Assembly: GCA_016196065.1 (NCBI GenBank)
Contig: JACPYL010000012.1
Location: 744,001-808,000 of the forward strand
Length of the DNA: 64,000 bases
Reading direction: 5' to 3'
Origin: Acidobacteriota bacterium
Lineage (GTDB): Bacteria; Acidobacteriota; Terriglobia; Terriglobales; Acidobacteriaceae
The position numbers were made by a program, and so were the translations under genes. Positions 1,094 to 36,858 of this stretch are shown piece after piece. The notes beneath the pieces were generated by a model. The model made no database searches. It worked only from the letters and a program-made list of their open reading frames with translations, and was not told the origin of the DNA. Position 1 is the first letter of the stretch; each line of letters begins with the position of its first letter.

Positions 1094-2248
1094 GTGACTG
1101 ACGAATTCAAAGAGATTGCCCATAGCGGCGGTCGCCTCACTATCCGTATAGGAACGGACGACAAGAATCGACGAGGCTACCAGTTAAGTTGGCATCACGA
1201 ACGGCCTGTGGCAGCAGGCATCTTTGCCGTGTACGCTCTTCCCCAAGGAGTCGCGGTTGGACAAATGGATCTCGGAGGAATTGGATCTGTCCCTAATCCG
1301 CCTCCCGTTCGAGGGTGTTTTCAAGTCTTCATTGGCTCGGACAGCGAGGGGAGATACGGTCACGAATGCCCCCTCTGCCAAGGCTACTGGAGAGATCGAG
1401 CGGGAACTCACTTCTGTCCGTATTGCGGTGTCCGTCAAGAAGTACACAACTTTTTGACAAAAGCGCAGAGGTCATACGTTGAGCAATACTGCGCAAAGAT
1501 GCGGGAAGTTCTGGAAGCTGACGTGGACGGAGACTATGTAATTGACATGGACGCGGTTGCGGATGCCGCTGGGAAGGACGGAGAGAAGCCGCCTTTCTAC
1601 TACACCGAGGAGAGCCAACAAAACAAATTCGACTGCAATGCTTGCGGCGCTTTCAACGACATTCTCGGCAAATTTGGATACTGTTCGCGTTGCGGTACGA
1701 GGAACGATCTACAAGAACTAGGCGACAAGATCATTCCCGCGCTACGTGAGCGGATCAATTCCGGCACCGGAGCCTTTGAGACGTGCGTCAAAGAAGTCGT
1801 CGCAGCGTTCGACTCGTTTGTTGGTCAATATGCAGCGCAACTCGTGAATCTTGTTCCACTGACGCCGGGTCGCAGGAACAGACTGACAGAACGACGGTTC
1901 CACAATTTAGAAAACGTCGCAGCGGACATTAAAGAGATATTTGATATTGACATACTCGACGGGATCGACGCTGCCGATCTAGCGTTTGCCAAGCTGATGT
2001 TTCAGAGGAGGCACGTATATGAGCACCGAGGCGGCGAAGCTGACGAAAAGTACATAGCCGATAGCGGCGACACCTCAGTTCGTCCTAAGCAAGCACTCCG
2101 CGAGACGCAAGAGTCAGCCCATCGAATTGCTGGGCTAGTATTGAAGATGGCGCGGAATCTCCATGCTGGCTTCCATAACATTCTCCCTCCAGACGACGGT
2201 CCAATTAAGCAGTATCAGCGATGGAAGAACCCGACCGGGCTCGCCTAA
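1094..2248 (+). CDS. Double zinc-ribbon protein with HEPN-type R-x4-H motif
   Basis: 384 residues, GTG start, no clear ribosome site. Two four-cysteine zinc ribbons are visible: C92/C95 with C108/C111, and C181/C184 with C197/C200. The helical C-terminal third contains R306-HVYE-H311, which fits the R-x4-6-H catalytic motif of HEPN ribonucleases, followed by an acidic/GD-containing segment typical of the HEPN region in proteins of unknown function. HEPN proteins are commonly metal-independent RNases of toxin, abortive-infection and CRISPR systems (established for the superfamily). Here an RNase or nucleotide-handling defence role on the mobile element is an inference. It stands alone between the repeat protein and the candidate origin. 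Confidence 0.65.
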   Translation: MTDEFKEIAHSGGRLTIRIGTDDKNRRGYQLSWHHERPVAAGIFAVYALPQGVAVGQMDLGGIGSVPNPPPVRGCFQVFIGSDSEGRYGHECPLCQGYWRDRAGTHFCPYCGVRQEVHNFLTKAQRSYVEQYCAKMREVLEADVDGDYVIDMDAVADAAGKDGEKPPFYYTEESQQNKFDCNACGAFNDILGKFGYCSRCGTRNDLQELGDKIIPALRERINSGTGAFETCVKEVVAAFDSFVGQYAAQLVNLVPLTPGRRNRLTERRFHNLENVAADIKEIFDIDILDGIDAADLAFAKLMFQRRHVYEHRGGEADEKYIADSGDTSVRPKQALRETQESAHRIAGLVLKMARNLHAGFHNILPPDDGPIKQYQRWKNPTGLA

Positions 2249-2912: not shown

Positions 2913-3245
2913 ATGCCAGACGTTATTGCTCGTTTCCGCTCAGACTCCCGTCGTATCTCACCACCCAAGATTGACGCCTCCGTCCCGAAGTACGCGACGG
3001 CACAGCTCAACTTCGCCAGCTACCTGATTGCTCTGAACCTTCTCCAGTACCAACGCGCATACCTCAGCGCGGACTCTCGCAGCGTCACCTTCGAGTTCAC
3101 GGACCCGGACGGACTGTCGTCTCTCTACTTGAGCCGGTTCAACGCCTCGATTGGCGAATGTAACGCGAGAGTGTTGCTGGAAGTTCGCAATTACCTGCTG
3201 AGCGAAGCCAAGCGCGTTCAATCGAAGGTGGCCAAAAGTGACTAA
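2913..3245 (+). CDS. DUF5659-like small protein
   Basis: 110 residues. The pattern (alternating residues around LNFASYLIALNLL, then VTFEFTDPDGLSSLYLSRFN, then a helical NYLLSEAKRV end) resembles the DUF5659 family found in phage and bacterial genomes, judged by eye. It overlaps the helicase gene by eight bases in another frame, so the two are probably co-translated. Its position between the candidate origin and the helicase suggests a replication accessory role, which is an inference. Confidence 0.6.
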   Translation: MPDVIARFRSDSRRISPPKIDASVPKYATAQLNFASYLIALNLLQYQRAYLSADSRSVTFEFTDPDGLSSLYLSRFNASIGECNARVLLEVRNYLLSEAKRVQSKVAKSD

Positions 3246-4617
3246 CTTCGAGCGCGCAAGAGATCAAGCCATCGTTGAGTTGAACAAAGAGGTCGCCATC
3301 AACGACCGAGGCGTCATGTTCAATATCGTTACCCGCGAAGTCATGTCCAGCGCCACGTTCCGGACTTCCTTCGCTCACCGCACGTTCGCCGTGGGTGACA
3401 AGACCTATCGCACCATTGACCATTGGCTGGAGTCGCCGCACCGTCGCGAATATAAGGAGTTGGTGTACGAGCCGCAGACCACCGCGAACGCCTTCAATCT
3501 CTATCCCGGCTGGGGAGCGAAGTCGAAAAAGGGTGACATCAAGCCGTGGGTCCGCTTGATGGACTCTATCTATGGCGCGGGCACGCCGGAGCGGAAATTC
3601 GCCGAACAATGGAACGGCTACCCCATCAAGCATCCGGGCACGAAGCTGAACACGGCGCGGCTCGTCATGTCCGCAGCCTACGGCACCGGGAAGACGAGCG
3701 AGACTTACGCGCTGGCTCGCGTCTACGGCAAAGAGAACGCCGTGGAGAACCTCACGCAAGACGAACTGGGCTCCCAGTTCAATCCGTGGGCTGACCGCAA
3801 ACAACTGATCGTCGTACAGGAGTGCTTGATTACGCGCTCGAATCTTCTGAACAAGATGAAGACGCTGATCACTCACGACTCCGTGACGATCAATCGCAAG
3901 AATCAGCCTTCGTACTCGATTGGAACTTGCGCCAACTACATCTTCCAGTCGAACTATCCGAACGCCATGCGGCTTCCCAGCGGCGAGCGCCGGATTCACG
4001 TGTTCGAAATGGAAGGCGAAGGTTACAAGAATGATCCTGCGTTCTGGGAGGAGTTTTATACGTGGTCGGACTCAGAGGAAGGACCGGCAGCGTTGCGGTG
4101 GCACTTCGAACATCTGGACTACTCCGGCTTCAATCCCTTCGCAGCAGCTCCGCTAACCGCAGCCAAGTGCGACATGATCGAGGCGACCGCTTCAACAACC
4201 GAACTTTGGTGTGCCCAACTCAAGGCTGATCCGACTGCGACGCTGGGTGGGGAGTTCGAGTTGGCTACCACCACGGACCTACTACGTAAGGCGCGGAAGG
4301 CGCTCAACAATAAAAACCTGACCGTGTCGGAACTCCGCGCCGCTCTGAAGTCCGCTGGAATCCGAAAAGCCATACCAGAGAAGATGAATCTCGATCAGCC
4401 GGACGGTGACGATCTGGACCCTTGGGGCAGACCCAAAAAGAGGAAGCGAATCGAACAGGTCAAGTTTGAAGGTGAGAATCACACGTTCTGGGTGTTAAAG
4501 GGTAACGCCGCGTACACACCAGCCGCGATTCGGGAGCGGTATCAGCGTATCTATCGGCTGAAGGAGTTGAAGAAGCCGGACGGCGAGTGGATACAGACAG
4601 ATCAGGAGGCGAGATGA
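3238..4617 (+). CDS. Phage-type SF3 helicase (DUF5906-like)
   Basis: 459 residues, GTG start inside the preceding gene. The ATPase core shows Walker A GTGKT at 149-153, LIVVQE at 190-195 in the Walker B place (the usual D of DE is Q), a sensor SN at 238-239 and an ERR arginine-finger motif at 250-252. This order matches the helicase half of primase-helicases such as DUF5906 proteins of phages and plasmids. No primase-polymerase domain precedes it; the 140-residue N-terminus is not recognised. It should unwind the element's DNA for replication. The stop codon overlaps the next start (ATGA), coupling it to the terminase genes, which is unusual since replication and packaging genes are normally separate operons. 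Confidence 0.8.
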   Translation: MTNFERARDQAIVELNKEVAINDRGVMFNIVTREVMSSATFRTSFAHRTFAVGDKTYRTIDHWLESPHRREYKELVYEPQTTANAFNLYPGWGAKSKKGDIKPWVRLMDSIYGAGTPERKFAEQWNGYPIKHPGTKLNTARLVMSAAYGTGKTSETYALARVYGKENAVENLTQDELGSQFNPWADRKQLIVVQECLITRSNLLNKMKTLITHDSVTINRKNQPSYSIGTCANYIFQSNYPNAMRLPSGERRIHVFEMEGEGYKNDPAFWEEFYTWSDSEEGPAALRWHFEHLDYSGFNPFAAAPLTAAKCDMIEATASTTELWCAQLKADPTATLGGEFELATTTDLLRKARKALNNKNLTVSELRAALKSAGIRKAIPEKMNLDQPDGDDLDPWGRPKKRKRIEQVKFEGENHTFWVLKGNAAYTPAAIRERYQRIYRLKELKKPDGEWIQTDQEAR

Positions 4618-5132
4618 GACCACAGGACCGTGCAGCTACGAAGGCTCGAATGGCGGCCAAGAAGAAGCGTCTAACGACGCTGTGTATACGAGAAGGAAAG
4701 TCAATACGCGCCGCGTCCGCCATCCTCAAGCAGGAAGGCTTCGCCGTGGGCGCGAGCAAGACGCGCCTCGGAGCCGATCTACTCGCAATCAGCCGCGAGG
4801 CTCCCAAGGCGTTCGAGCGCGAACGGCAGACGGCATACGGGGAGTTGAAAACGCTCCAGAAGTTCGTTGCTGACGCGGACGATATGAACAGTAAGGAAAC
4901 CGTGGACAGCCTGCTGGCTATCCGGGACCGGATTAATCGCCTCCTCGGTCTGGACGCTCCGCAGAAGTCCGTCGTGGCGAACGTGGGATTGACTCCCGCG
5001 TATATCGAGATTGCGAAGGCGATGGCGGACGTAGCGCCGGAAGATCGTCTCAAGGTTCTCGCGTACATCCGGTCCCTCGTCAAGCCACTTGAGTTGACGG
5101 CGGATTGTTTTCCGCCAACGGAGGTTGAATGA
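4614..5132 (+). CDS. Candidate terminase small subunit
   Basis: 172 residues starting at an ATG with AGGAGG nearby, overlapping the helicase stop by four bases and ending four bases into the large terminase. The basic N-terminus with a helix-turn-helix-like stretch (REGKSIRAASAILKQEGFAVG) would recognise DNA; the middle is coiled-coil-like and the end helical. Size, coupling and position directly before the large subunit are those of small terminases, which bind the packaging site and load the large subunit. There is no clear sequence match by eye, so the call rests mostly on context. Confidence 0.6.
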   Translation: MRPQDRAATKARMAAKKKRLTTLCIREGKSIRAASAILKQEGFAVGASKTRLGADLLAISREAPKAFERERQTAYGELKTLQKFVADADDMNSKETVDSLLAIRDRINRLLGLDAPQKSVVANVGLTPAYIEIAKAMADVAPEDRLKVLAYIRSLVKPLELTADCFPPTEVE

Positions 5133-6661
5133 TCACGTTTCGGAAATTCTTTACGGCAACGAGTCCGGCGACGTTCGAACAGCCGTGGCACTTGAAGTTG
5201 ATCGGCTCGTATCTTGAAAAGGTAGAACGCCGGGAGATTCAGAATCTCGCCATCTTTACGCCTCCTCAGCACGGAAAGTCCACGACCGTGGCGGAGCGAT
5301 ACCCGGCGTATCACTTTGCGCGTGATCCGCTCAGTCACGTGCTGGTCTGCTCCTATTCGGACGATCTAGCCGTGCGCGCCTCCGCGAACTGTAAAACGAT
5401 TGTTCAAAGCGACTGGTGGCAGGAGACGTTCAACTATCCGGTCGGAAAGGCGACCGAGGCGCGTTGGATGTTCGTCGTGCCCGGTCAGGACGGTCGCTAT
5501 AGCTGCGTTGCTTCGGGTATCGCCGGAGGTATCACAGGCCATACGGCGGACCTATGCGTGATTGATGACGTTCTCCGAAACAGGATGGATGCGCTATCGC
5601 CTACGATTCGAGAAAACATCTGGCAGAACTTTACATCTTCGGTTGAAAGCAGGTTGCCCAAGAATGGCCGCATAGTGATGATCACGACCCGCTGGCACGC
5701 GGACGATCTGGCCGGCAGGATTCTGACGCGGGCGAAGGAGAACAAGAAGGCTTCGCAGTGGACCGTCCTCGTTCTCCCGGCGACGAACGATTCCGGCGAG
5801 GAGGCTTACGTGCTGGACACGCGGACCGGTGAGCAGAAGTTCCTAGCGAAGTACGACGCGCTTTGGCCGTCGCGCTTCCCTCGCGACATTCTGGACCAGC
5901 GCCGCGCTGATCTGGGCGAAGGTATCTGGAGCGCGTTGTACGCCTGTCGCCCGTCGATGGGCACTGACATTCTCTTTCCTGTCGAATCTTGGGGCACGTA
6001 CAAAGGCATCGAGGAGGACCAGCTTAGTCTTGTCGTAACCGCTTGGGACTGCGCAAGCAAGACCGGGAACGGCAACGATTATTCCGCCAACGTTGTTCTG
6101 GGGAGAATGAACGACGGTCGCATACTCGTCCTTGATGTCTGGAAAAGCAAAGTGGACTTCTCACAGCTGCCCGGAATCATCTTGGAGAGGTATCGCGCCG
6201 TGGCCGCTCGGTATCACACGGTTCCCGCGCTGGTGATCGAAGACGCGGCAGCCGGGACTCAAGCTATTCAGCTCTTTCAATCGGCCCACCCACTGATCCC
6301 GCTCGTCGTGGCGAAGCCCGGAGGAAAGTCCAAGATCGTTCGCGCTGAAGGCGTCACGGTCTTTACCCGGAGCGGAGTAGTGCTGCTCCCACAACAAGCC
6401 ATCTGGCGCGATTCGTTCGTAAACGAGTGCGCGGAGTTCCCGCTGGGTGTTCACGACGACGTGGTAGACGCCTTCGTGCACGGTTGTAAGGTGTTCGTAT
6501 CTTCCGGCGACTTCAAGTCAACCGAGTTCTTGCTCACGCCGGGCAGCACGCGACCATACACCAACGAAGATATCATCGCTGAATTTCTTGAAAATCAACC
6601 AGCCTTCGGGATATGTCTATCACCCGAACTAGACCGGGCTGACGAAGGAGACTTTGAATGA
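5129..6661 (+). CDS. terL: Phage terminase large subunit (packaging ATPase/nuclease)
   Basis: 510 residues, complete. The ATPase domain has Walker A PQHGKST at 46-52, Walker B CVIDD at 143-147 and a TTRWH coupling motif near 190. The RNase H-fold nuclease follows: AWDCASK near 310 with the following DYSANVVLG and ILVLDVW strands, VIEDAAAG near 371 and DDVVDAF near 446, giving the expected acidic triad. This is a Terminase_6-type motor that cuts and pumps DNA into a capsid. All key residues are present, so it may be active. Uniquely for a phage operon, no portal or capsid gene follows; instead come small unknown genes and the integration edge. Confidence 0.93.
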   Translation: MITFRKFFTATSPATFEQPWHLKLIGSYLEKVERREIQNLAIFTPPQHGKSTTVAERYPAYHFARDPLSHVLVCSYSDDLAVRASANCKTIVQSDWWQETFNYPVGKATEARWMFVVPGQDGRYSCVASGIAGGITGHTADLCVIDDVLRNRMDALSPTIRENIWQNFTSSVESRLPKNGRIVMITTRWHADDLAGRILTRAKENKKASQWTVLVLPATNDSGEEAYVLDTRTGEQKFLAKYDALWPSRFPRDILDQRRADLGEGIWSALYACRPSMGTDILFPVESWGTYKGIEEDQLSLVVTAWDCASKTGNGNDYSANVVLGRMNDGRILVLDVWKSKVDFSQLPGIILERYRAVAARYHTVPALVIEDAAAGTQAIQLFQSAHPLIPLVVAKPGGKSKIVRAEGVTVFTRSGVVLLPQQAIWRDSFVNECAEFPLGVHDDVVDAFVHGCKVFVSSGDFKSTEFLLTPGSTRPYTNEDIIAEFLENQPAFGICLSPELDRADEGDFE

Positions 6662-7347: not shown

Positions 7348-7650
7348 ATGTTAGCGCCGTCTGTACGTGGGTGGGAGAACCGGCTCGAAGCGTATTACAA
7401 GACCTTCGCGCCTTACTTCGAGGGTCGCAGGAAGTCCGTCAAACAGCACGACGTGATTTGCTTCATTCGCGACTATCACTTCACTCCCGCTCAGGTTGTG
7501 ACGGCGACCGGCTACTCGCTCGACTTCATTCACGACACAATCCGTCGATTCGCCGCCAGATGTAACGTTCGACTCATTCAAGAACTCAAGGAGATCAACG
7601 ATGTATCAACAGAACATCACGCTACCCGTAGAGTCACTAAACGTCGATAA
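7348..7650 (+). CDS. Unknown 100-residue protein, possible HTH
   Basis: Begins three bases after the previous stop. Residues 45-70 (FTPAQVVTATGYSLDFIHDTIRRF) read like a helix-turn-helix, so DNA binding is possible. The last 17 codons overlap the next gene in another frame, and the C-terminal residues there are basic (ATRRVTKRR). Family not recognised. Confidence 0.5.
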   Translation: MLAPSVRGWENRLEAYYKTFAPYFEGRRKSVKQHDVICFIRDYHFTPAQVVTATGYSLDFIHDTIRRFAARCNVRLIQELKEINDVSTEHHATRRVTKRR

Positions 7651-8050
7651 GATCGCAGCCACCGTCCGCGAACTCGTCCCGGCCAACACTCAAGATCACA
7701 CAACGGCGGAAGAACTTCGGACGCAACTGCGCTCGCTCGTAGAGCGACGGGACTTCCACGACTCCCGCGCCGAACGGTACTCGCAGGAACTCGCTATCGT
7801 AGAGGGTACGCTGCGCAACACGAAGTCCGCGTTAGACGAGGCTCAGAAACTCGTCATCACCCGTCCCGCCTTGCGGCATCGAATCGCGGAACTCGAACAG
7901 AACAAGGAACGGCTCCGGGAGGAGATTACGGCGCTACAAGTCGCCGTCGAACGTCAGGCTGCTATCCGGGACTCCGCCATAAAAGCTATCGCGGAATTCG
8001 ATCATTCAAAATTGAAACGCCTGAGCGCTGAGGAAAAAGCGCTGGGCTAG
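7601..8050 (+). CDS. Coiled-coil protein of the mobile element
   Basis: 149 residues with an AAGGAG site before the ATG. From about residue 40 to 135 the sequence is an almost unbroken heptad-rich helix (LRSLVERRDFHDSRAERY..., LRHRIAELEQNKERLREEITALQ). No enzyme motif. Similar length and form are seen in phage scaffolding or structural adaptor proteins, but a coiled coil alone does not identify function. It is the last gene before a strong terminator. Confidence 0.6.
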   Translation: MYQQNITLPVESLNVDKIAATVRELVPANTQDHTTAEELRTQLRSLVERRDFHDSRAERYSQELAIVEGTLRNTKSALDEAQKLVITRPALRHRIAELEQNKERLREEITALQVAVERQAAIRDSAIKAIAEFDHSKLKRLSAEEKALG

Positions 8051-8103
8051 AGTCTCCCCGCTGTTGTGCGTTTTACCTCCAGTTCTTCGCAAAACAGCCG
8101 GAT

Positions 8104-8136
8104 AGCCGGGGTCTTGGGAGAGTCCCCGGCTTTTTG
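8104..8136 (+). terminator. Rho-independent terminator
   Basis: A perfect 8-bp stem, AGCCGGGG paired with CCCCGGCT, around a 12-base loop is followed by TTTT. It closes the 7057-8050 gene group. Confidence 0.85.
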
Positions 8137-8318
8137 ATATGTGACAACACGGCGCTCTGGCAGAGCGACGGCGTTGTGGTGGGTGACGGTCCCGACCCAG
8201 CAATGGGTCAATCCGTCACGAGTCTTCGGTGTACTCGTTCCAGCAAAGCGCCGGACGCTCCGAGCAACGTTCTCGGTACACGAAGCCGGGGGAGTCGCGC
8301 TTGCCTCTCCCGGCTTTT
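8137..8318 (+). ncRNA. Candidate structured non-coding RNA between two terminators
   Basis: No gene fits here, yet four consecutive stem-loops can be drawn. Stem 1: CGCTCT/AGAGCG (8153-8158 with 8162-8167) extended by CAAC/GTTG. Stem 2: GTGACGG (8183-8189) with CCGTCAC (8213-8219), enclosing GACCC/GGGTC. Stem 3: GTGTAC (8229-8234) with GTACAC (8276-8281), enclosing AGCG/CGCT. Stem 4 is the terminator at 8284-8318. The T-runs say the transcript is on the plus strand. No promoter is evident after the first terminator, so it could arise by read-through or processing. A structured 3' UTR is the main alternative. Confidence 0.45.
8284..8318 (+). terminator. Second rho-independent terminator, same stem core
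   Basis: AGCCGGGGGAG pairs with CTCTCCCGGCT (one mismatch), followed by TTTTACTTTC. The left arm shares the AGCCGGGG core with the terminator 180 bases upstream. It ends just before the ribosome site of the next gene. Confidence 0.75.
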
Positions 8319-8336
8319 ACTTTCTCGGAGGCTCGA

Positions 8337-8621
8337 ATGAAATGGCTTAAGACTCGCCGTCAACTACATAAGGCGTACAGCGCAACGTTGAACGCTCACG
8401 TGGAGGCGCTCGCCACGTATCAGGACTTGATTGCCGGTTATCAGGAGACGATTGCGAGGCGCGATACGCTGATCGAGTTCCAGCGCCGGACAATGGCTGA
8501 GATGAGAGAACAAATTGTCGAACTGAAGAAGTACTGCGATGACTACCATAAAGCGCGGGAGTCCAGAGCGGCTGAGATTCAGCGACGGCTCGCGGCTCCT
8601 CCATCCACGACCATCCACTAG
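8337..8621 (+). CDS. Small coiled-coil protein of the mobile element
   Basis: 94 residues from an ATG with CGGAGG six bases upstream; longer readings upstream run through the terminator hairpin and are unlikely. A basic N-terminus (MKWLKTRRQLHKAY) leads into a long heptad-type helix up to about residue 80 and a short proline-containing tail. No recognised family. Being placed behind a terminator it needs its own promoter or anti-termination. Confidence 0.5.
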   Translation: MKWLKTRRQLHKAYSATLNAHVEALATYQDLIAGYQETIARRDTLIEFQRRTMAEMREQIVELKKYCDDYHKARESRAAEIQRRLAAPPSTTIH

Positions 8622-8773
8622 AGTTCGTCTTCCCAGCACGGCTCCGAATGGCCAACCAGCCTCGGAGCCGTTCGTGTCTACAACCATTCCACTGCGAGTG
8701 AGGAAACTGGACAATCCGGGCGTCAGTGACCGAGGGTCAATGAGTGTAATCGCGATATTTCAACAGTTGAAAA

Positions 8774-9205: not shown

Positions 9206-9434
9206 CGATCTTCTCTCATTCTCCGACCGTTATTATGCGACAGAGCCTCGACTGTTGAAAACAGGCGATTACACCAACTACAGTGTGCGACCCGCACGAG
9301 CACACACCTCTCTGGACAATCCGAGTGTCAGAAACGCGGGCCTATCGCGGGCCTAAGCATGAGTACCTTTTGATGGGTTCGGAGCGGACCTAAGTCATTA
9401 CAGGGAAAGGAAAATGGGTGTCAGACTTTTCGCG

Positions 9435-9473
9435 TTAGCAAACCGCCGCATTCGGCCACTCTGCCACCTCTCC
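9435..9473 (-). pseudogene. 5' half of tRNA-Ser(GCU): element attachment site
   Basis: Read on the minus strand, the 39 bases match the start of a bacterial serine tRNA: acceptor GGAGAGG, TG at 8-9, D-arm GCA pairing with TGC, left anticodon stem GCGGT and loop TTGCTAA with anticodon GCT. The expected right stem (ACCGC) and everything after it are missing: the next bases are CGCGAAAAG. The break is exactly at the 3' edge of the anticodon loop, a known crossover point of tyrosine integrases. It is not a functional tRNA as it stands. Confidence 0.75.
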
Positions 9474-9614
9474 GCGACGGGTGGAATTTAGTGTAACACT
9501 GAGCTGGAGGTTGATAAATTCCTCTTCACCAGCCTGCACCTGAATTCGCGTTTCGTCCCGCCGTCTATATAATCCTTTGCATTCTTGCATCTAAAGTTTT
9601 TAGGAGGCCTGATT

Positions 9615-11327
9615 ATGCATTCGCGTGAGATCTTGCGTAAAGGAATGGCAGCGATCGGTTTCGTGTTGCTGATTGTGGCTTCGGCAGCGGCTTGGCAGTA
9701 TGGCAATAGTAGTAATGGTGACGAAGGGCAATACCAGATTCTGCAGGCGCGCTACGGTACCTCAGAGAGAAATGTGGATGTAACCCAGCGCCTGAAACAG
9801 TTGGCGACTCAGGATCGCACTTTCCGCATGGGCAACTCCACGTTTGGAGAAGATCCTGATCCTGGCCGCGTGAAGACTCTGCGCATTTACACGCGCGGTC
9901 CCGGCGGTGCGAATCGCATGTTCGAGTACCGCGAGGGCAGTGTCGTCGATGGCTCGCAGTTCACCGGCTGGGGCCGCGGCGATTGGGGCGGCGGCGGATG
10001 GAATGGCGGCTGGGGCGATGGCAACAGCACGGGCAATGGCAACGGGGATGACGGGCAATATCAGATCCTGCAAGCCCGCTACGGTACGGCACAAAGAAAT
10101 GTGGACGTCACAGAACGGCTGAAGGAACTGGCGCGCCGCGATGTAACTTTTCGGATGGGCAACTCCACGTTTGGGGTTGATCCCGATGAAGGCCGCGTCA
10201 AGACGCTGCGCATTTACACTCGTGCGCGCAACGGACAGAACCGGATGTTCGAATACCGCGAAGGCAGCGTCGTCGATGGATCACAGTTCACCGGCTGGGG
10301 CCGTGGCGACTGGGGTGGCGGCGGCTGGAATGGCGGCTGGGGCGATGGAAACGGCGGCGGCAACGGGAGCGGCGACAGCGGTCAATACCAGATCCTGCAA
10401 GCCCGTTACGGCACGCAGCAGAGGAACGTCGATGTGACCGAGCGGCTGAAGGAACTCGCGCGTCGAGACCAAACCTTCCGCATGGGGAACTCGACGTTTG
10501 GAGTCGATCCTGACGAGGGCCGTGTCAAGACGTTGCGGATTTACACGCGTGGCCCGGGCGGTCAATATCGCGTCTTCGAATACCGCGAAGGCAGCTATGT
10601 TGACGGCTCGCAATTCACAGGTTGGGGCGGCGGCAACTGGGGTGGTGGCGGCGGCTGGAACGGTGGCTGGGGAGACGGAGATGAGGGGCAATACCAGATC
10701 ATGCAAGCGCGTTACGGCACGGCGCGTCGCAACGTAGACGTCACCGAGCGGTTGAAGGAACTGGCTCGCCGCGATGTAAGTTTCCGGATGGGGAATTCCA
10801 CGTTCGGAGTCGATCCGGATCGTGGTCATGTCAAGACTCTGCGCATCTATGCTCGCGGGCCGAACGGCGGCAATCGCACGTTCGAATACCGCGAAGGCAG
10901 CGTCGTTGATGGCGCCCTCTTTAGCAGCTGGGGCGGCGGCAACTGGGGTGGTGGTGGCGGCGGCTGGAATGGCGGCTGGGGGAATCTCGGCAACGATGAC
11001 TGGCGCGACGGCCGTCGCGTCGTGGATCGTGACCGCGATGGCGATCGCGACAACAACCGTGACTACAACCGCGATGATCGTGGCCGCTATGGCCAGTTGA
11101 ACATTGTCCGCGCCACCTATGGTGCGGGCAATCGCACGCAGGATGTTACCGGACGTCTCCGCTCGCTGGTTCGAGACGGCCGTCTGCAGATCACCGTGAA
11201 TAACGATTCGATGGGTACCGATCCGGCGCCCGGCGCGCGCAAGACGCTATCGGTGAGCTATTCGAATGGCGGCGGCTCTCAGCAGCAGGCTCGCGTTTCG
11301 GAAGGCAGTCAACTCAGCATTCCGTAA
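9615..11327 (+). CDS. Secreted protein with tandem DUF3395-like (DnaJ-C11 C-terminal-like) repeats
   Basis: 570 residues from an ATG behind AGGAGG. A signal peptide (hydrophobic GFVLLIVASAAA, cleavage near AAA-W) is followed by four nearly identical repeats of about 102-109 residues and a fifth divergent one. Each has GQYQILQARYG, a NVDVT-RLK helix, FRMGNSTFG-DPD-GRVKTLRIYTR and a FEYREGS end, resembling by eye the DUF3395 domain. Repeats are joined by Gly/Trp linkers (GWGRGDWGGGGWNGGWGDGN); before repeat five the linker is Asp/Arg-rich. It is probably exported and may bind polymers or assemble; function is unknown. High identity of repeats 1-4 points to recent internal duplication. Confidence 0.8.
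   Translation: MHSREILRKGMAAIGFVLLIVASAAAWQYGNSSNGDEGQYQILQARYGTSERNVDVTQRLKQLATQDRTFRMGNSTFGEDPDPGRVKTLRIYTRGPGGANRMFEYREGSVVDGSQFTGWGRGDWGGGGWNGGWGDGNSTGNGNGDDGQYQILQARYGTAQRNVDVTERLKELARRDVTFRMGNSTFGVDPDEGRVKTLRIYTRARNGQNRMFEYREGSVVDGSQFTGWGRGDWGGGGWNGGWGDGNGGGNGSGDSGQYQILQARYGTQQRNVDVTERLKELARRDQTFRMGNSTFGVDPDEGRVKTLRIYTRGPGGQYRVFEYREGSYVDGSQFTGWGGGNWGGGGGWNGGWGDGDEGQYQIMQARYGTARRNVDVTERLKELARRDVSFRMGNSTFGVDPDRGHVKTLRIYARGPNGGNRTFEYREGSVVDGALFSSWGGGNWGGGGGGWNGGWGNLGNDDWRDGRRVVDRDRDGDRDNNRDYNRDDRGRYGQLNIVRATYGAGNRTQDVTGRLRSLVRDGRLQITVNNDSMGTDPAPGARKTLSVSYSNGGGSQQQARVSEGSQLSIP
9717..11080 (+). repeat. Tandem coding repeats of 306-327 bp
   Basis: Units begin at 9717, 10044, 10371 and 10677 (periods 327, 327, 306 bases) at the codons for G-D-x-G-Q-Y-Q-I. 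A shorter diverged fifth unit begins near 11080 after an Asp/Arg-rich linker. The DNA is also strongly conserved between units. Confidence 0.85.
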
Positions 11328-11340
11328 CTCTGATCGAATC

Positions 11341-11378
11341 GCGCTCTCGCCTGGAGAAACAACTCCGGGCGAGAGCTC
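11341..11378 (+). terminator. Hairpin behind the repeat protein
   Basis: GCTCTCGCCTGGAG pairs with CTCCGGGCGAGAGC (one mismatch), a 13-14 bp stem with a short loop. No strong T-run follows, so it may act as an mRNA-stabilising or attenuating hairpin and not as a classic terminator. Confidence 0.55.
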
Positions 11379-11411
11379 GATTTCCAAGCGGACTTCACGA
11401 AACTCACCATT

Positions 11412-14745: not shown

Positions 14746-16770
14746 ATGGCACGAGCAACGCGTCGCGAAATCCGCATTGCGATTGATACGGGTGGGACCT
14801 TCACGGACTGCGTGTGGGCGGCAGGCAGTGTGCTCAAAACGCTGAAGGTGTTTTCGACGCCTGACGATCCTTCGCGGGCGATTGCCGAGGCACTACAGAA
14901 AATCGGCGTCACGGAAAATTTCACGCTTCTCCATGGCACGACGGTTGGCACCAACGCGCTTCTGCAACGAAAGGGCGCGCGGGTAGCTCTGATCACGACT
15001 TCCGGATTTGAAGATGTCATCGAAATCGGACGTCAGGCGCGTTCGCAGTTGTATGACTTCTTCTTCGAGCGCGTACCTCCGCTTGTGCCACGAGAACTGC
15101 GCTTCGGAATCAAAGAAAGAATCAGCGCGGACGGACAGGTCCTGGAAACTCCTTCGGTCGAGGGACTGGAACGCCTGAGGGAAATGGTCGCCAGTGCGAA
15201 TGCGGATGCGATCGCCATCTCGCTCTTATTCTCGTTCGCGAATCCGAATGACGAAATAGCGGTGGCAGCGGCTCTGGCGAAACTAGGCAAGCCGCTTTCC
15301 GCCTCTCACAAGATTCTCCCCGAGTTTCGCGAGTACGAGCGCACCAGCACGGTGGTGGTGAATGCTTATTTGCAACCGCTGATGCAAAGCTATCTGCAGA
15401 AAATTGGCGAGCGGGCCAAAAATCTCAGCGAGCGATCACTGGCTGCGACACCGCGCATCTTCGTCATGCAATCCAGCGGCGGGATCACGTCGCTGGATGC
15501 CGCTGCTCGCGAGCCAGTTCGAACCGTACTGTCTGGTCCTGCCGGAGGGTTGGTGGGCGCGGCCGCGATGGCGGCGCGCAGCGGGTTCCCACGCATATTG
15601 TCCTTCGACATGGGAGGAACTTCCACCGACGTCGCTCTGGTTGAAGGCGAGGCGCGTCCCAGCATTGCCGGTGAAGTGGCGGGATTTCCCGTCGGCGTGC
15701 CCATGCTCGACATCCACACGGTCGGCGCGGGTGGTGGTTCGCTGGCTCGCTTCGACGCTGGCGGCGCATTGCGTGTTGGGCCAGAATCGGCGGGCGCCGA
15801 TCCCGGACCAATCTGTTATGGCCGCGGCACGCAGCCCACGGTCACCGATGCCAACCTGATTTTGGGAAGACTGCGCGCGGATCGCTTTCTAGGTGGTGAA
15901 TTCGCTCTGCAGGCGGAACGTGCTCGCAGTCTCACGTCCGAATGGTTGAAGAAGGAGAACTCGCGTTTGACGCTCCTGCAGTTTGCTGCAGGGGTGTTGC
16001 AAGTTGTGAACGCCAACATGGAGCGGGCCCTGCGCGTCGTGTCGATCGAGCGCGGCTACGATCCCCGCGACTTTGCCCTGGTCGCGTTTGGAGGAGCGGG
16101 TGGCTTGCACGCCTGCGAACTCGCCCAGTCGTTGGGCATCCCAACGGTCATCGTGCCGGCTCGCCCGGGAGCACTCTCGGCATTTGGAATTCTGGTCAGC
16201 GACGCAGTCAAAGATTTTTCGCGAACTTTACTGTGGAATCTTTCCACGAGAAAACCGCGCCCAGAATTGGAACGAGAATTTCGAAAGCTTGAGGTCCTGG
16301 CGCGAAAAGAGTTTCTTGCGGAAAGATGGGTCGGACGTCCGATCTTCGAACGCAGTCTCGATCTGCGTTACCGGGGACAAGGTTATGAACTCAACGTTCC
16401 TGCTACCGGAGATGCGACAGCCCACTTTCATCAGGAACATCAACGACGCTACGGATATCACCATGCAGCGAAGGAAATCGAGTTGGTGACCGTGCGGTTG
16501 CGGGCAAGAGTCAAGGCGCAAGGATTAGACATCACCAGGGACAAGGCTGTCGGCAGACCCTCGGGAAGGGCAAAGCCGCTCGAGCGAGCAAAAGTCATTT
16601 TCCAGGGAAAGGCCGTCATCACTCCGGTATACGAACGCGGCGACTTGATTCCAGATCAATCGTTAAGAGGTCCAGCCGTGGTCACGGAATACAGCGCGAC
16701 CACAGTTATCCCACCGGGCAGGAAATTCTGGGTTGATCGAGCGGAGAACCTTCTGATTGCGATCAAGTGA
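14746..16770 (+). CDS. hyuA: Hydantoinase/oxoprolinase A subunit
   Basis: 675 residues from ATG (MARATRREIRIAIDTGGTFTDC). The N-terminal Hydant_A_N domain has the DTGGTFTD phosphate motif; the ATPase-like core carries HGTTVGTNALL, SGPAGG, FDMGGTSTDV and GAGGGS motifs; a C-terminal domain of the oxoprolinase type ends the protein. Family members cleave 5-oxoproline or N-methylhydantoins (or carboxylate acetone) with ATP hydrolysis. The B subunit normally encoded next door is absent here, so the enzyme must be completed by a distant gene, or act alone. Confidence 0.88.
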   Translation: MARATRREIRIAIDTGGTFTDCVWAAGSVLKTLKVFSTPDDPSRAIAEALQKIGVTENFTLLHGTTVGTNALLQRKGARVALITTSGFEDVIEIGRQARSQLYDFFFERVPPLVPRELRFGIKERISADGQVLETPSVEGLERLREMVASANADAIAISLLFSFANPNDEIAVAAALAKLGKPLSASHKILPEFREYERTSTVVVNAYLQPLMQSYLQKIGERAKNLSERSLAATPRIFVMQSSGGITSLDAAAREPVRTVLSGPAGGLVGAAAMAARSGFPRILSFDMGGTSTDVALVEGEARPSIAGEVAGFPVGVPMLDIHTVGAGGGSLARFDAGGALRVGPESAGADPGPICYGRGTQPTVTDANLILGRLRADRFLGGEFALQAERARSLTSEWLKKENSRLTLLQFAAGVLQVVNANMERALRVVSIERGYDPRDFALVAFGGAGGLHACELAQSLGIPTVIVPARPGALSAFGILVSDAVKDFSRTLLWNLSTRKPRPELEREFRKLEVLARKEFLAERWVGRPIFERSLDLRYRGQGYELNVPATGDATAHFHQEHQRRYGYHHAAKEIELVTVRLRARVKAQGLDITRDKAVGRPSGRAKPLERAKVIFQGKAVITPVYERGDLIPDQSLRGPAVVTEYSATTVIPPGRKFWVDRAENLLIAIK

Positions 16771-35000: not shown

Positions 35001-35177
35001 GAGTGCCTCCGAGATGGAGGCAGAATGAGGCTCGGGCAGCGGGATGACAATGCACAGAGGGTAAAACGGATGTCAAGCGCTATCTGCTGTTTTATGAATG
35101 AATTACAGTGGGATATCGACTCGCCGAAAGAGGCTATTTAGGCCCGGATTTCTTATTCCGGATTTCTCAGTTAAGAA

Positions 35178-35251
35178 CTGTCATCCCGAGCGAAGCGAGG
35201 GATCTGCAGTTCGCGGCAGATACAGATCCCTCGCTTCGCTCGGGATGACAG
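35178..35251. repeat. Large palindromic REP-like element
   Basis: Two perfect 29-base inverted arms (35178-35206 and 35223-35251) around a 16-base loop; each arm itself contains the palindrome GAGCGAAGCGAGGGATC-type core. This kind of element is common in acidobacterial genomes. No gene falls in the 290-base gap that contains it. Confidence 0.85.
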
Positions 35252-35294
35252 AATCTAAGGAAGGTTCACAGATGGTCGGCGTTCGACATGAGAC

Positions 35295-36698
35295 CTAAAT
35301 GGCCTCCCCGATCGCCGCCCGCAGTTGATCTACCGCCCACCCAATCTGCTCGGCTGCAATCACGGCCGGGGGCGCAATCAACAGGTGGTCGCCGGAGATT
35401 CCGTCGATGCATCCCTGCATCGGATACACCAGCAGTCCGCGCTTGCGGCAGCCTTGGCCAACGAGTCCTGCGAAATTTTTCTCCGCCGAAAACGGTTGCT
35501 TAGTTTTTTTGTCGCGGACGATTTCCACGGCCCACAACAAGCCTAGGCCTCGGACGTCACCAACGGCGTCGAGATCGCCCAGACTTTCTAGTGCAGCTTT
35601 GAGTGTCGAAGCTATGGTGCCTTCAAGACTCGAATCCGCCGCACGCACCAGATTCAGCGTTTTCATCCGGTGCAGCACCGCCCGCCCCACCGCCACCGAT
35701 ACCGGATGCGCGTTGTAAGTAAAGCCGTGCAGGAAGGCACCGGCGCCGGGTCCATCGGCAATCGCATCGACAACTTTTTTGCTGGCGATGACTGCGCCGA
35801 GCGGCGCGTATCCCGAAGAAACGCCTTTCGCGGCGACGATGATGTCCGGCGCAACCTGCCAGTGCTCGACCGCAAAGTTGCGCCCCGTGCGGCCCATGCC
35901 GGTCATCACTTCGTCGGCAATCAGCAGGACGCCGTGACGTTGGCAAATTTCCGCGACACTCTGCAGGTATCCGGGCGGCGGAGTGACGGCTCCGAGTGTC
36001 GCTCCGCTCATGGGCTCGAAAATAAAAGCGGCGGCCTGGCCGTCCGCGGCGACGATCGCGTTTTCAAGTTCAGCGGCGTATTGCTGGCCGCAATTGCGGC
36101 AACCGTCCGCGCAGTCGAAGTCGCAGCGATAGCAGTAAGGAATCCCGATGTGGGCGAACTCACGCACCATCGGCAGATACATCTCTCGCCGTTTCTTGTT
36201 ACCGGAAACCGCGAGCGCTCCCAGCGTCGATCCGTGATAGCTCTGATTGCGGCTCAGGACCTGATAGCGTCTTGTCTGGCCGATTTCCACCTGATATTGC
36301 CGCGCGAGCTTCAACGCGGTCTCGATCGATTCCGATCCGCCACAGGTGAAGTACACCGCGCCGCCGCGGAAGTGCGGGCCGGCAAACTCCAGCATCTCGG
36401 CAGCAAATTCCTCTGCCACCGGTGTCGTGAACTGGCTGGTGTGGACAAACTCAAGCTGGCGCGCCTGCTCCAGCATCGCATCGCCGATCTCGCGGACGCC
36501 GTGTCCGATGAAATTTACGGCGGCCGATCCAGAAAAATCGAGATAGCGATGCTCGTCGGCGTCCCAAACGTAGACGCCTTCGCCGCGTACCGCCGCCGGA
36601 TACGGCTTGCGAAAGGAGCGACGCAGAACGGGAGTACGGAAATTCTGATCAGGTCGAGTCACGCAAGGAATTATCGAATCGGGAAGACCCGATGTCAA
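35295..36698 (-). CDS. Class III aminotransferase with cysteine-rich insert
   Basis: 467 residues, likely TTG start (a GTG 12 codons in is the alternative). PLP lysine in AAKGVSSGYAPLG; GGSESIETALKLARQY, YHGSTLGALAVSG, EPMSGATLG and DEVMTGMGRTG support an omega-transaminase-like enzyme. Between sheets, near residue 190, CYRCDFDCADGCRNC puts five cysteines close together, a possible metal site. Substrate unknown. Confidence 0.85.
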   Translation of the reverse strand: MTSGLPDSIIPCVTRPDQNFRTPVLRRSFRKPYPAAVRGEGVYVWDADEHRYLDFSGSAAVNFIGHGVREIGDAMLEQARQLEFVHTSQFTTPVAEEFAAEMLEFAGPHFRGGAVYFTCGGSESIETALKLARQYQVEIGQTRRYQVLSRNQSYHGSTLGALAVSGNKKRREMYLPMVREFAHIGIPYCYRCDFDCADGCRNCGQQYAAELENAIVAADGQAAAFIFEPMSGATLGAVTPPPGYLQSVAEICQRHGVLLIADEVMTGMGRTGRNFAVEHWQVAPDIIVAAKGVSSGYAPLGAVIASKKVVDAIADGPGAGAFLHGFTYNAHPVSVAVGRAVLHRMKTLNLVRAADSSLEGTIASTLKAALESLGDLDAVGDVRGLGLLWAVEIVRDKKTKQPFSAEKNFAGLVGQGCRKRGLLVYPMQGCIDGISGDHLLIAPPAVIAAEQIGWAVDQLRAAIGEAI

Positions 36699-36702
36699 AA
36701 TT

Positions 36703-36785
36703 GCATTCCTCCGTGACCTCCGTGCCCCCCGTGGTAGAGATCAAGAGCTTGAACCACAGAGGACACGGAGGTCACGGAGGAATGC
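36703..36785. repeat. REP-like inverted repeat upstream of murJ
   Basis: Two arms of about 33 bases, the right one ACCACAGAGGACACGGAGG with a TCACGGAGG extension, the left its complement with few mismatches. The same family flanks the other end of murJ and occurs in part inside rnr. Confidence 0.8.
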
Positions 36786-36858
36786 CACACTTGTCATTTC
36801 CGATTCGCCACCACCGATAGCCCCCCAGGTCTCGCTCGGATGCGTTACCCTGCGATAG

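Follow-up and report, generated by a model that had tools for sequence, protein, structure and literature searches.

A structured non-coding segment between two predicted terminators in a satellite-like element of an acidobacterium

What is a gene-free, strongly folding piece of DNA doing between two terminators in one arm of a bacterial mobile element? The piece in question spans positions 8137-8318 of the window (the whole 64,000-nucleotide stretch that was analysed, bases 744001-808000 of an acidobacterial contig, whose positions are used below unless another locus is named). An earlier note, made from the letters alone, had singled it out as a candidate regulatory or packaging-related RNA. 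A limited literature search, made up mostly of titles and the openings of abstracts, turned up no description of the element or of an RNA from the segment. We find the content to be most likely ordinary: a structured spacer with a terminator on either side, carried by a satellite-like element.

The segment lies in the small-gene arm of a satellite-like element

The first 9.5 kb of the window are part of a mobile element, and both gene content and attachment repeats bear out the earlier placing of the segment in the small-gene arm of a helicase/terminase element. The 40-bp repeat at the right end has its other copy 11,044 bp away, outside the window, in an intact tRNA gene, the complete tRNA-Ser(GCT) at contig positions 742336-742429. 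A tyrosine integrase gene adjoins this left copy, and an integrase with attachment repeats at a tRNA gene is a trait of phage satellites. After the integrase come genes for a SprT-like protein, a glycine-rich repeat protein, a zinc-ribbon-like protein, a DUF5906 primase-helicase, the probable small and the large terminase subunits (TerS and TerL) and a run of small genes that have no solid family match (Table 1). No capsid or tail family was recognised among the element proteins, ten of which were compared with PHROGs and Pfam and the others with Pfam only; several of the small proteins matched no family. With an integrase, a primase-helicase, a large and a probable small terminase subunit and no recognised capsid or tail gene, the element appears satellite-like.

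Several other features of the element and its borders were observed. A minus-strand frame at 520-960, inside the element, has 11 GPGGG-containing units of eight residues encoded by a 24-base tandem repeat. The 384-aa protein encoded at 1094-2248 (plus strand) has zinc-ribbon-like cysteines, a weak PADLOC match to PDC-M14A (E 1e-6) and a RRHVYEHR stretch of HEPN-like appearance; it is possibly defence cargo of the satellite. Near the right end, a 143-aa minus-strand frame that by eye has long hydrophobic stretches, and whose codon score is poor, lies between repeats at 8707-8770 and 9248-9331, both direct (CTGGACAATCCG.G.GTCAG) and inverted (27 nt, 81%); this is possibly a small insertion. Directly across the same tRNA-Ser gene, a second, different tyrosine integrase (locus L003, 948-2291, plus strand) suggests a second element or a remnant at the same tRNA.

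Table 1 Features of the element in the window.
Feature	Position	Strand	Basis or remark
DUF5906 primase-helicase	3238-4617	+	PHROGs and Pfam scans
Probable small terminase subunit (TerS)	4587-5132	+	Position and helix-turn-helix look, no family match; 42% to kin
Large terminase subunit (TerL)	5129-6661	+	phrog_38, 3.6e-89
149-aa gene	7601-8050	+	Coiled-coil-like by eye; homologue in locus L158 (32% over 145 aa) likewise precedes a structured segment
T1, predicted intrinsic terminator, AGCCGGGG-N12-CCCCGGCT and T run	8104-8135 (stem 8104-8131)	+	-20.1 kcal/mol; 3' of the 149-aa gene
Structured non-coding segment	8141-8281	+	Predicted rod with branched tip; alternative, local hairpins
Hairpin GTGACGG(...GACCCA-GCAA-TGGGTC...)CCGTCAC	8183-8219	+	Most certain; retained in both folds; pair probabilities 0.67-1.0
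T2, predicted intrinsic terminator, AAGCCGGGGGAG...CTCTCCCGGCTTTT and T run	8283-8318 (stem 8283-8316)	+	-23.2 kcal/mol
GGAGG, likely ribosome-binding site	8327-8331	+	Read from sequence
94-aa gene	8337-8621	+	Coiled-coil-like by eye; codon score 0.164
T3, 10-bp perfect hairpin ACGGCTCCGA...TCGGAGCCGT, weak T tail	8638-8671	+	After the 94-aa gene
Right attachment repeat, 40 bp	9435-9474	-	Exact; 39 bp are the 5' part of tRNA-Ser(GCT)

Two strong terminator sequences flank a segment without a convincing reading frame

The segment sits between the 149-aa and 94-aa genes, which lie on the same strand. That no credible frame crosses it had been claimed before, and a codon test agreed: the six frames across 8137-8318 scored from -0.11 to 0.075, like non-coding sequence, and a coding frame through the segment was ruled out on this test. 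The codon table was built from five genes of the same element, so that their own scores (0.11-0.27) are self-scoring. Three frames outside the training set scored 0.105, 0.222 and 0.164, the last being that of the 94-aa gene, which falls in the range of the element genes and thus scores like a gene.

T1 and T2, noted earlier as twin terminators, are strong terminator sequences in the same orientation, each a GC-rich hairpin followed immediately by a T run, with the core AGCCGGGG common to both. They are spaced 146 nt apart and form the sole pair with both members at or below -20 kcal/mol among the 13 pairs of same-strand terminators found 20-350 nt apart in 464 kb of the genome. T2 was missed by a general terminator scan that listed T1, owing to a T2 loop longer than the scan allows; over the first 9.6 kb the same scan gave 7 sites against 9.4 expected from shuffles, fewer than chance.

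Between the end of T2 and the ATG of the 94-aa gene are 18 nt, with GGAGG in between. This distance leaves no room for a promoter, and hence any promoter of the 94-aa gene must be upstream of T2; a scan for one promoter type found no promoter-like site in the segment. A terminator so close before a start is not special in this genome: by automatic gene calls, a same-strand start follows at no more than 80 nt for 8 of the 50 strong intergenic terminators in the 464 kb, T2 being one of the eight.

A hairpin core shared within the element was also considered as an element-specific signal and rejected: two hairpins share one here, and two or more share one in 17 of 40 host control segments. The exact pattern AGCCGGG...CCCGGCTTT, chosen post hoc, is rare, with four distinct places in 5.5 Mb, two of which are T1 and T2. 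An exact search of viral contigs for the hairpin pattern gave nothing useful.

Much of the folding signal is the second terminator

Four successive stem-loops had been drawn by hand in the segment. Their stems are present in the sequence: CGCTCT (8153-8158) with AGAGCG (8162-8167), joined by CAAC (8145-8148) with GTTG (8173-8176); GTGACGG (8183-8189) with CCGTCAC (8213-8219), enclosing GACCC (8194-8198) with GGGTC (8205-8209); and GTGTAC (8229-8234) with GTACAC (8276-8281), enclosing AGCG (8247-8250) with CGCT (8256-8259). The succession of stem-loops fared less well than the stems, for the minimum-energy prediction is a single rod (8141-8281) followed by the terminator. Of the hand-drawn hairpins, the predicted rod, a long irregular duplex of 48 pairs, retains the one with GTGACGG but not the first or the third, which it replaces. 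When only local pairs are allowed, the best fold is a row of hairpins at -82.0 kcal/mol, 6.3 kcal/mol worse. As local hairpins form first during transcription, either the rod or the row of hairpins may exist.

When the 182 bases were folded and compared with shuffled sequence, as the earlier note had proposed, the plus strand gave -88.3 kcal/mol (z -4.22) and the minus strand -81.1 kcal/mol (z -3.82), with none of 200 shuffles as stable in either case. Without T2 (8137-8281) z was -2.87 for the plus and -3.19 for the minus strand, again with 0 of 200 shuffles each, and a separate set of 150 shuffles gave -2.62 for the plus strand (two as good) and -3.61 for the minus strand. The drop in z on removal of T2 indicates that much of the folding signal is T2 itself and, the minus strand then being equal or better, the remaining structure shows no preference for the plus strand.

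The structure is high against its surroundings, though not unique. Among 532 windows tiled over the 64 kb, that at 8161-8342 ranked fourth by z. Among 277 intergenic windows from the 464 kb (276 tiled plus the segment itself, the better strand being taken for each) the segment ranked 18th by z and sixth by energy, three of the top six being chromosomal inverted repeats within the 64-kb window. Inverted repeats of the chromosome at about 35161-35342, 36601-36823 and 38401-38520 fold very strongly (z -6.9 to -9.4); their units include TGTCATCCCGAGCGAAGCGAGGGATC and GTCACGGAGGTCACAGAGGA, and they are perhaps MITE-like.

Two explanations draw on these controls. One takes the segment as two terminators and a GC-rich, partly palindromic spacer whose internal structure has no function. 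A z of just -2.6 to -2.9 once T2 is removed, the 17 of 277 intergenic windows that do better and the sharing of the hairpin core at no more than host background all speak for it; the structured segments in the same slot of one homologous element and at the matching place of two more, described below, speak against it, and we consider it unlikely. The other explanation is a DNA-level site (a packaging start, replication origin or operator array) that is palindromic by chance. The nearly equal folding of the two strands without T2 would suit such a site, as would the terminase and primase encoded by the element, but the T runs that follow the flanking hairpins on the plus strand would not, and none of the 20 largest repeat families, out of at least 60, forms an iteron-like array there. 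Packaging sites are usually found at the gene for the small terminase subunit, which here is about 3 kb from the segment. A DNA-level site thus seems highly improbable.

Searches for the RNA return the segment itself

An Rfam search with the segment gave no family at gathering score and, at E 10, only weak sub-threshold matches, the best at 17.8 bits against a cut-off of 55; a known RNA family was excluded at both settings. The packaging role proposed earlier gained no support from this search, as no Rfam match placed the segment in a packaging-RNA family and its tie to the terminase consists of sharing an element. Rfam includes the phi29 pRNA. The regulatory reading of the segment is possible. 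No tRNA or tmRNA was found in the 64-kb window.

Searches at the DNA level matched the segment to itself only in 101 related genomes, gave no phage match for 7601-8700 and, with the segment, gave short weak matches in phages and plasmids. A covariance model of the segment, R1, was built from this single sequence and scores it at 185.8 bits. Under strict filters R1 found itself and one weak hit (20.7 bits) in the 101 genomes, and itself and two weak hits (20.7 and 21.5 bits) in 299 genomes of the class; many pairs are broken in both hits, and open frames overlap that of 21.5 bits. The top scores were 16.7 and 15.1 bits in 80 viral contigs, and in two further loci, L158 and L159, the best was 11.2 bits, outside the L158 segment described below. 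We take these weak hits (20-21, 15-17 and 11 bits) as chance.

These results bear on a further explanation, an independent small RNA, some 145-180 nt long, that runs from just after T1 to T2 and regulates the satellite, a helper phage or the host in trans. It would account for a gene-free, structured segment with a strong terminator at its end and a second one that insulates it from upstream, and of the two strands the plus strand gives the more stable fold when T2 is counted in. It is weakened by the empty promoter scan (of one promoter type), by the failure of the DNA and covariance searches to find anything beyond the segment itself in the genomes and viral contigs above, and by the counterpart segment in L158, which differs in sequence and fold. 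We consider such an RNA unlikely.

A structured segment occupies the same place in related elements

In 300 genomes of the family, a search with the primase found one other genome, G633, at a locus (L158) that adjoins tRNA-SeC and where no long attachment repeat was found. L158 has homologues of the integrase (37%), the primase (26%), TerS (42%), TerL (37%) and the 149-aa protein (32% over 145 aa), together with weak homologues of the 110-aa and 95-aa proteins, and its gene order is the same as here. The 149-aa homologue is followed by a non-coding segment of 164 nt with z -3.95 on the plus strand (0 of 200 shuffles as good) and -2.84 on the minus strand (2 of 200). It folds into three hairpins and then a final GGGAGCCG/CGGCTCCC hairpin with TTTT two bases on, and this T run ends 4 nt before the next ATG, that of a 77-aa frame that is coiled-coil-like by eye and has no clear ribosome-binding site. 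The two slot segments did not match each other at E 10 in a BLASTN comparison with a word size of 7, and the 94-aa and 77-aa proteins had no BLAST similarity (26% in a forced alignment). Farther along L158, at 15748-16010 after the 77-aa frame, is an array of about five strong hairpins (z -8.0 plus, -7.3 minus) that is more structured than the segment at 8137-8318.

Two more distant elements, L188 (in G633, at tRNA-Arg) and L189 (in a third genome, G900, at tRNA-Ser), have homologues of the integrase, TerS and TerL. Their small genes before the slot have no match to the 149-aa protein and are coiled-coil-like by eye. At the matching place both are structured, with z -3.47 at 10779-10978 of L188 and z -4.28 at 9869-10126 of L189 (reverse complement), each with 0 of 150 shuffles as good. 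In L189 about 15-20 nt separate the end of a hairpin of -28.6 kcal/mol, which has a T-rich tail, from the start of the next frame; in L188 the strong hairpin of this kind (-23.6) stands about 80 nt upstream of the next frame. On the plus strand a second non-coding stretch of L188, at 11165-11391, folds hardly better than shuffled sequence (z -1.33, with 18 of 150 shuffles as good). A strict terminator scan missed the hairpins that precede the slot genes in L158, L188 and L189; these come from folds and from a permissive scan that has many matches inside genes. G633 carries two different members of the element group, at tRNA-SeC and at tRNA-Arg.

Sliding scans placed the slot at varying ranks. 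Its region was the best window in L188 and the fourth in L189; in L158 it was seventh, with the top four starting 350-500 nt after the slot begins; in the element described here it held the second, fourth, fifth and sixth places, the best window being inside a gene. What recurs is the place and not the sequence, a descriptive observation on the four elements found.

Other searches added no further members. The 149-aa protein matched itself only in 396 genomes, the L158 arm matched itself only at the DNA level in 120 genomes around G633, and single-protein scans of viral and genome contigs gave nothing useful. Loci in G514 had TerL (one also a short integrase match) and no TerS or 149-aa homologue, and L190 and L191 had TerL only. 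An IMG/VR contig (L160) has TerL (36%) and a primase and stops about 700 nt after TerL.

Hairpins near the small genes of L158, L188 and L189, and a rod model that is a long irregular duplex between two same-strand genes, would also be expected of hairpins that process or stabilise a long polycistronic transcript (RNase III type), separating the 149-aa and 94-aa messages and shielding the ends. This explanation leaves the T runs after both flanking hairpins unaccounted for, and the searches gave no homologue through which covariation of the pairing could show. We regard it as quite unlikely.

A leader RNA bounded by two terminators

The explanation that we favour, tentatively and at somewhat less than even odds, is that the segment is a non-coding leader (intergenic) RNA of the right-arm operon whose two terminators limit expression of the 94-aa gene. 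If the genes form one operon and the terminators work in vivo, T1 would stop most transcripts of the terminase and small genes 3' of the 149-aa gene. Polymerases that pass T1 would transcribe the structured segment, and most would halt at T2. The 94-aa protein would then be made from those polymerases that leak or are let through T2, and the pair of terminators would set a low, possibly conditional, level of the 94-aa gene. The rod may have a part in this, by helping polymerase through T2 or by protecting the RNA, or may do nothing. The position of T2, 18 nt before the 94-aa ATG, suits a leader or a read-through terminator at least as well as the end of a free-standing RNA. Speaking for the leader are the pair of strong terminators, the short gap between T2 and the ATG, the gene-like codon score of the 94-aa frame and the same layout in L158, together with the structured segments of L188 and L189.

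Several observations count against the leader. Once T2 is left out, the plus strand folds no better than the minus strand; the 94-aa protein has no BLAST similarity to the 77-aa protein of L158, whose frame lacks a clear ribosome-binding site; terminators close before a start also occur elsewhere in this genome; the strict scan did not list the hairpins before the slot genes of L158, L188 and L189; and the second L188 stretch folds near shuffle level. An antiterminator switch in which the 5' arm of T2 pairs with the leader, which is one form of switch, was rejected at chance level, as 51% of 300 shuffled leaders gave pairing as strong.

A single result lifts the finding above background, the same layout seen again in a homologous element. 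The structured RNA itself is an ordinary candidate, and nothing found marks it as a new functional RNA. A broader and rather doubtful proposal concerns a family of satellites that bear TerS and TerL. Such elements may place a structured leader at one fixed point, after a coiled-coil gene and before a small downstream gene, and keep its architecture (hairpins that run up to a terminator near a start codon) but not its sequence; the leader would serve each element as a conditional terminator of its own, which a factor of the satellite or of a helper phage perhaps opens. Were the slot a conditional terminator, it would give compact access to the way in which these satellite-like elements time their last genes. 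For now, the result mainly shows a group of satellite-like elements that encode a large terminase themselves and have structured stretches with terminators in the right arm.

Comparison with known systems

The element resembles satellites of the PICI type in its length of about 11 kb, tRNA site, tyrosine integrase, primase-helicase, terminase gene and lack of recognised capsid or tail genes; unlike them, it carries a large terminase subunit and has no known helper phage. The phi29 packaging RNA, of about 174 nt, is similar in length to the segment, and in both cases a packaging enzyme is encoded by the same element. The differences are that the segment has no Rfam match and that the terminase encoded with it is a phrog_38 TerL containing an RNase H-like domain, not a phi29 packaging ATPase.

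Satellite P4 has a primase-helicase, as does the element here, and its CI RNA is related to the C4 antisense RNA of phages. The C4 RNA is a small structured RNA of a phage-like element, whereas our segment has no Rfam match and lies in the right arm after the terminase genes. C4 antisense RNA is entered in Rfam as RF01695 (PMC2864571).

Attenuators and riboswitch leaders share with the segment a structured non-coding leader and a terminator just before the ribosome-binding site, here 18 nt from the ATG. The segment departs from them in belonging to no Rfam family at gathering score and in having no antiterminator pairing above chance.

Read-through, leaky or tandem terminators of this kind are well known between phage genes. 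Phage read-through terminators have the same strong GC-rich hairpin and T run between same-strand genes, with the next gene adjoining and no room for a promoter. The element described here differs in having two such terminators, putatively leaky, with a common core and a structured spacer between them.
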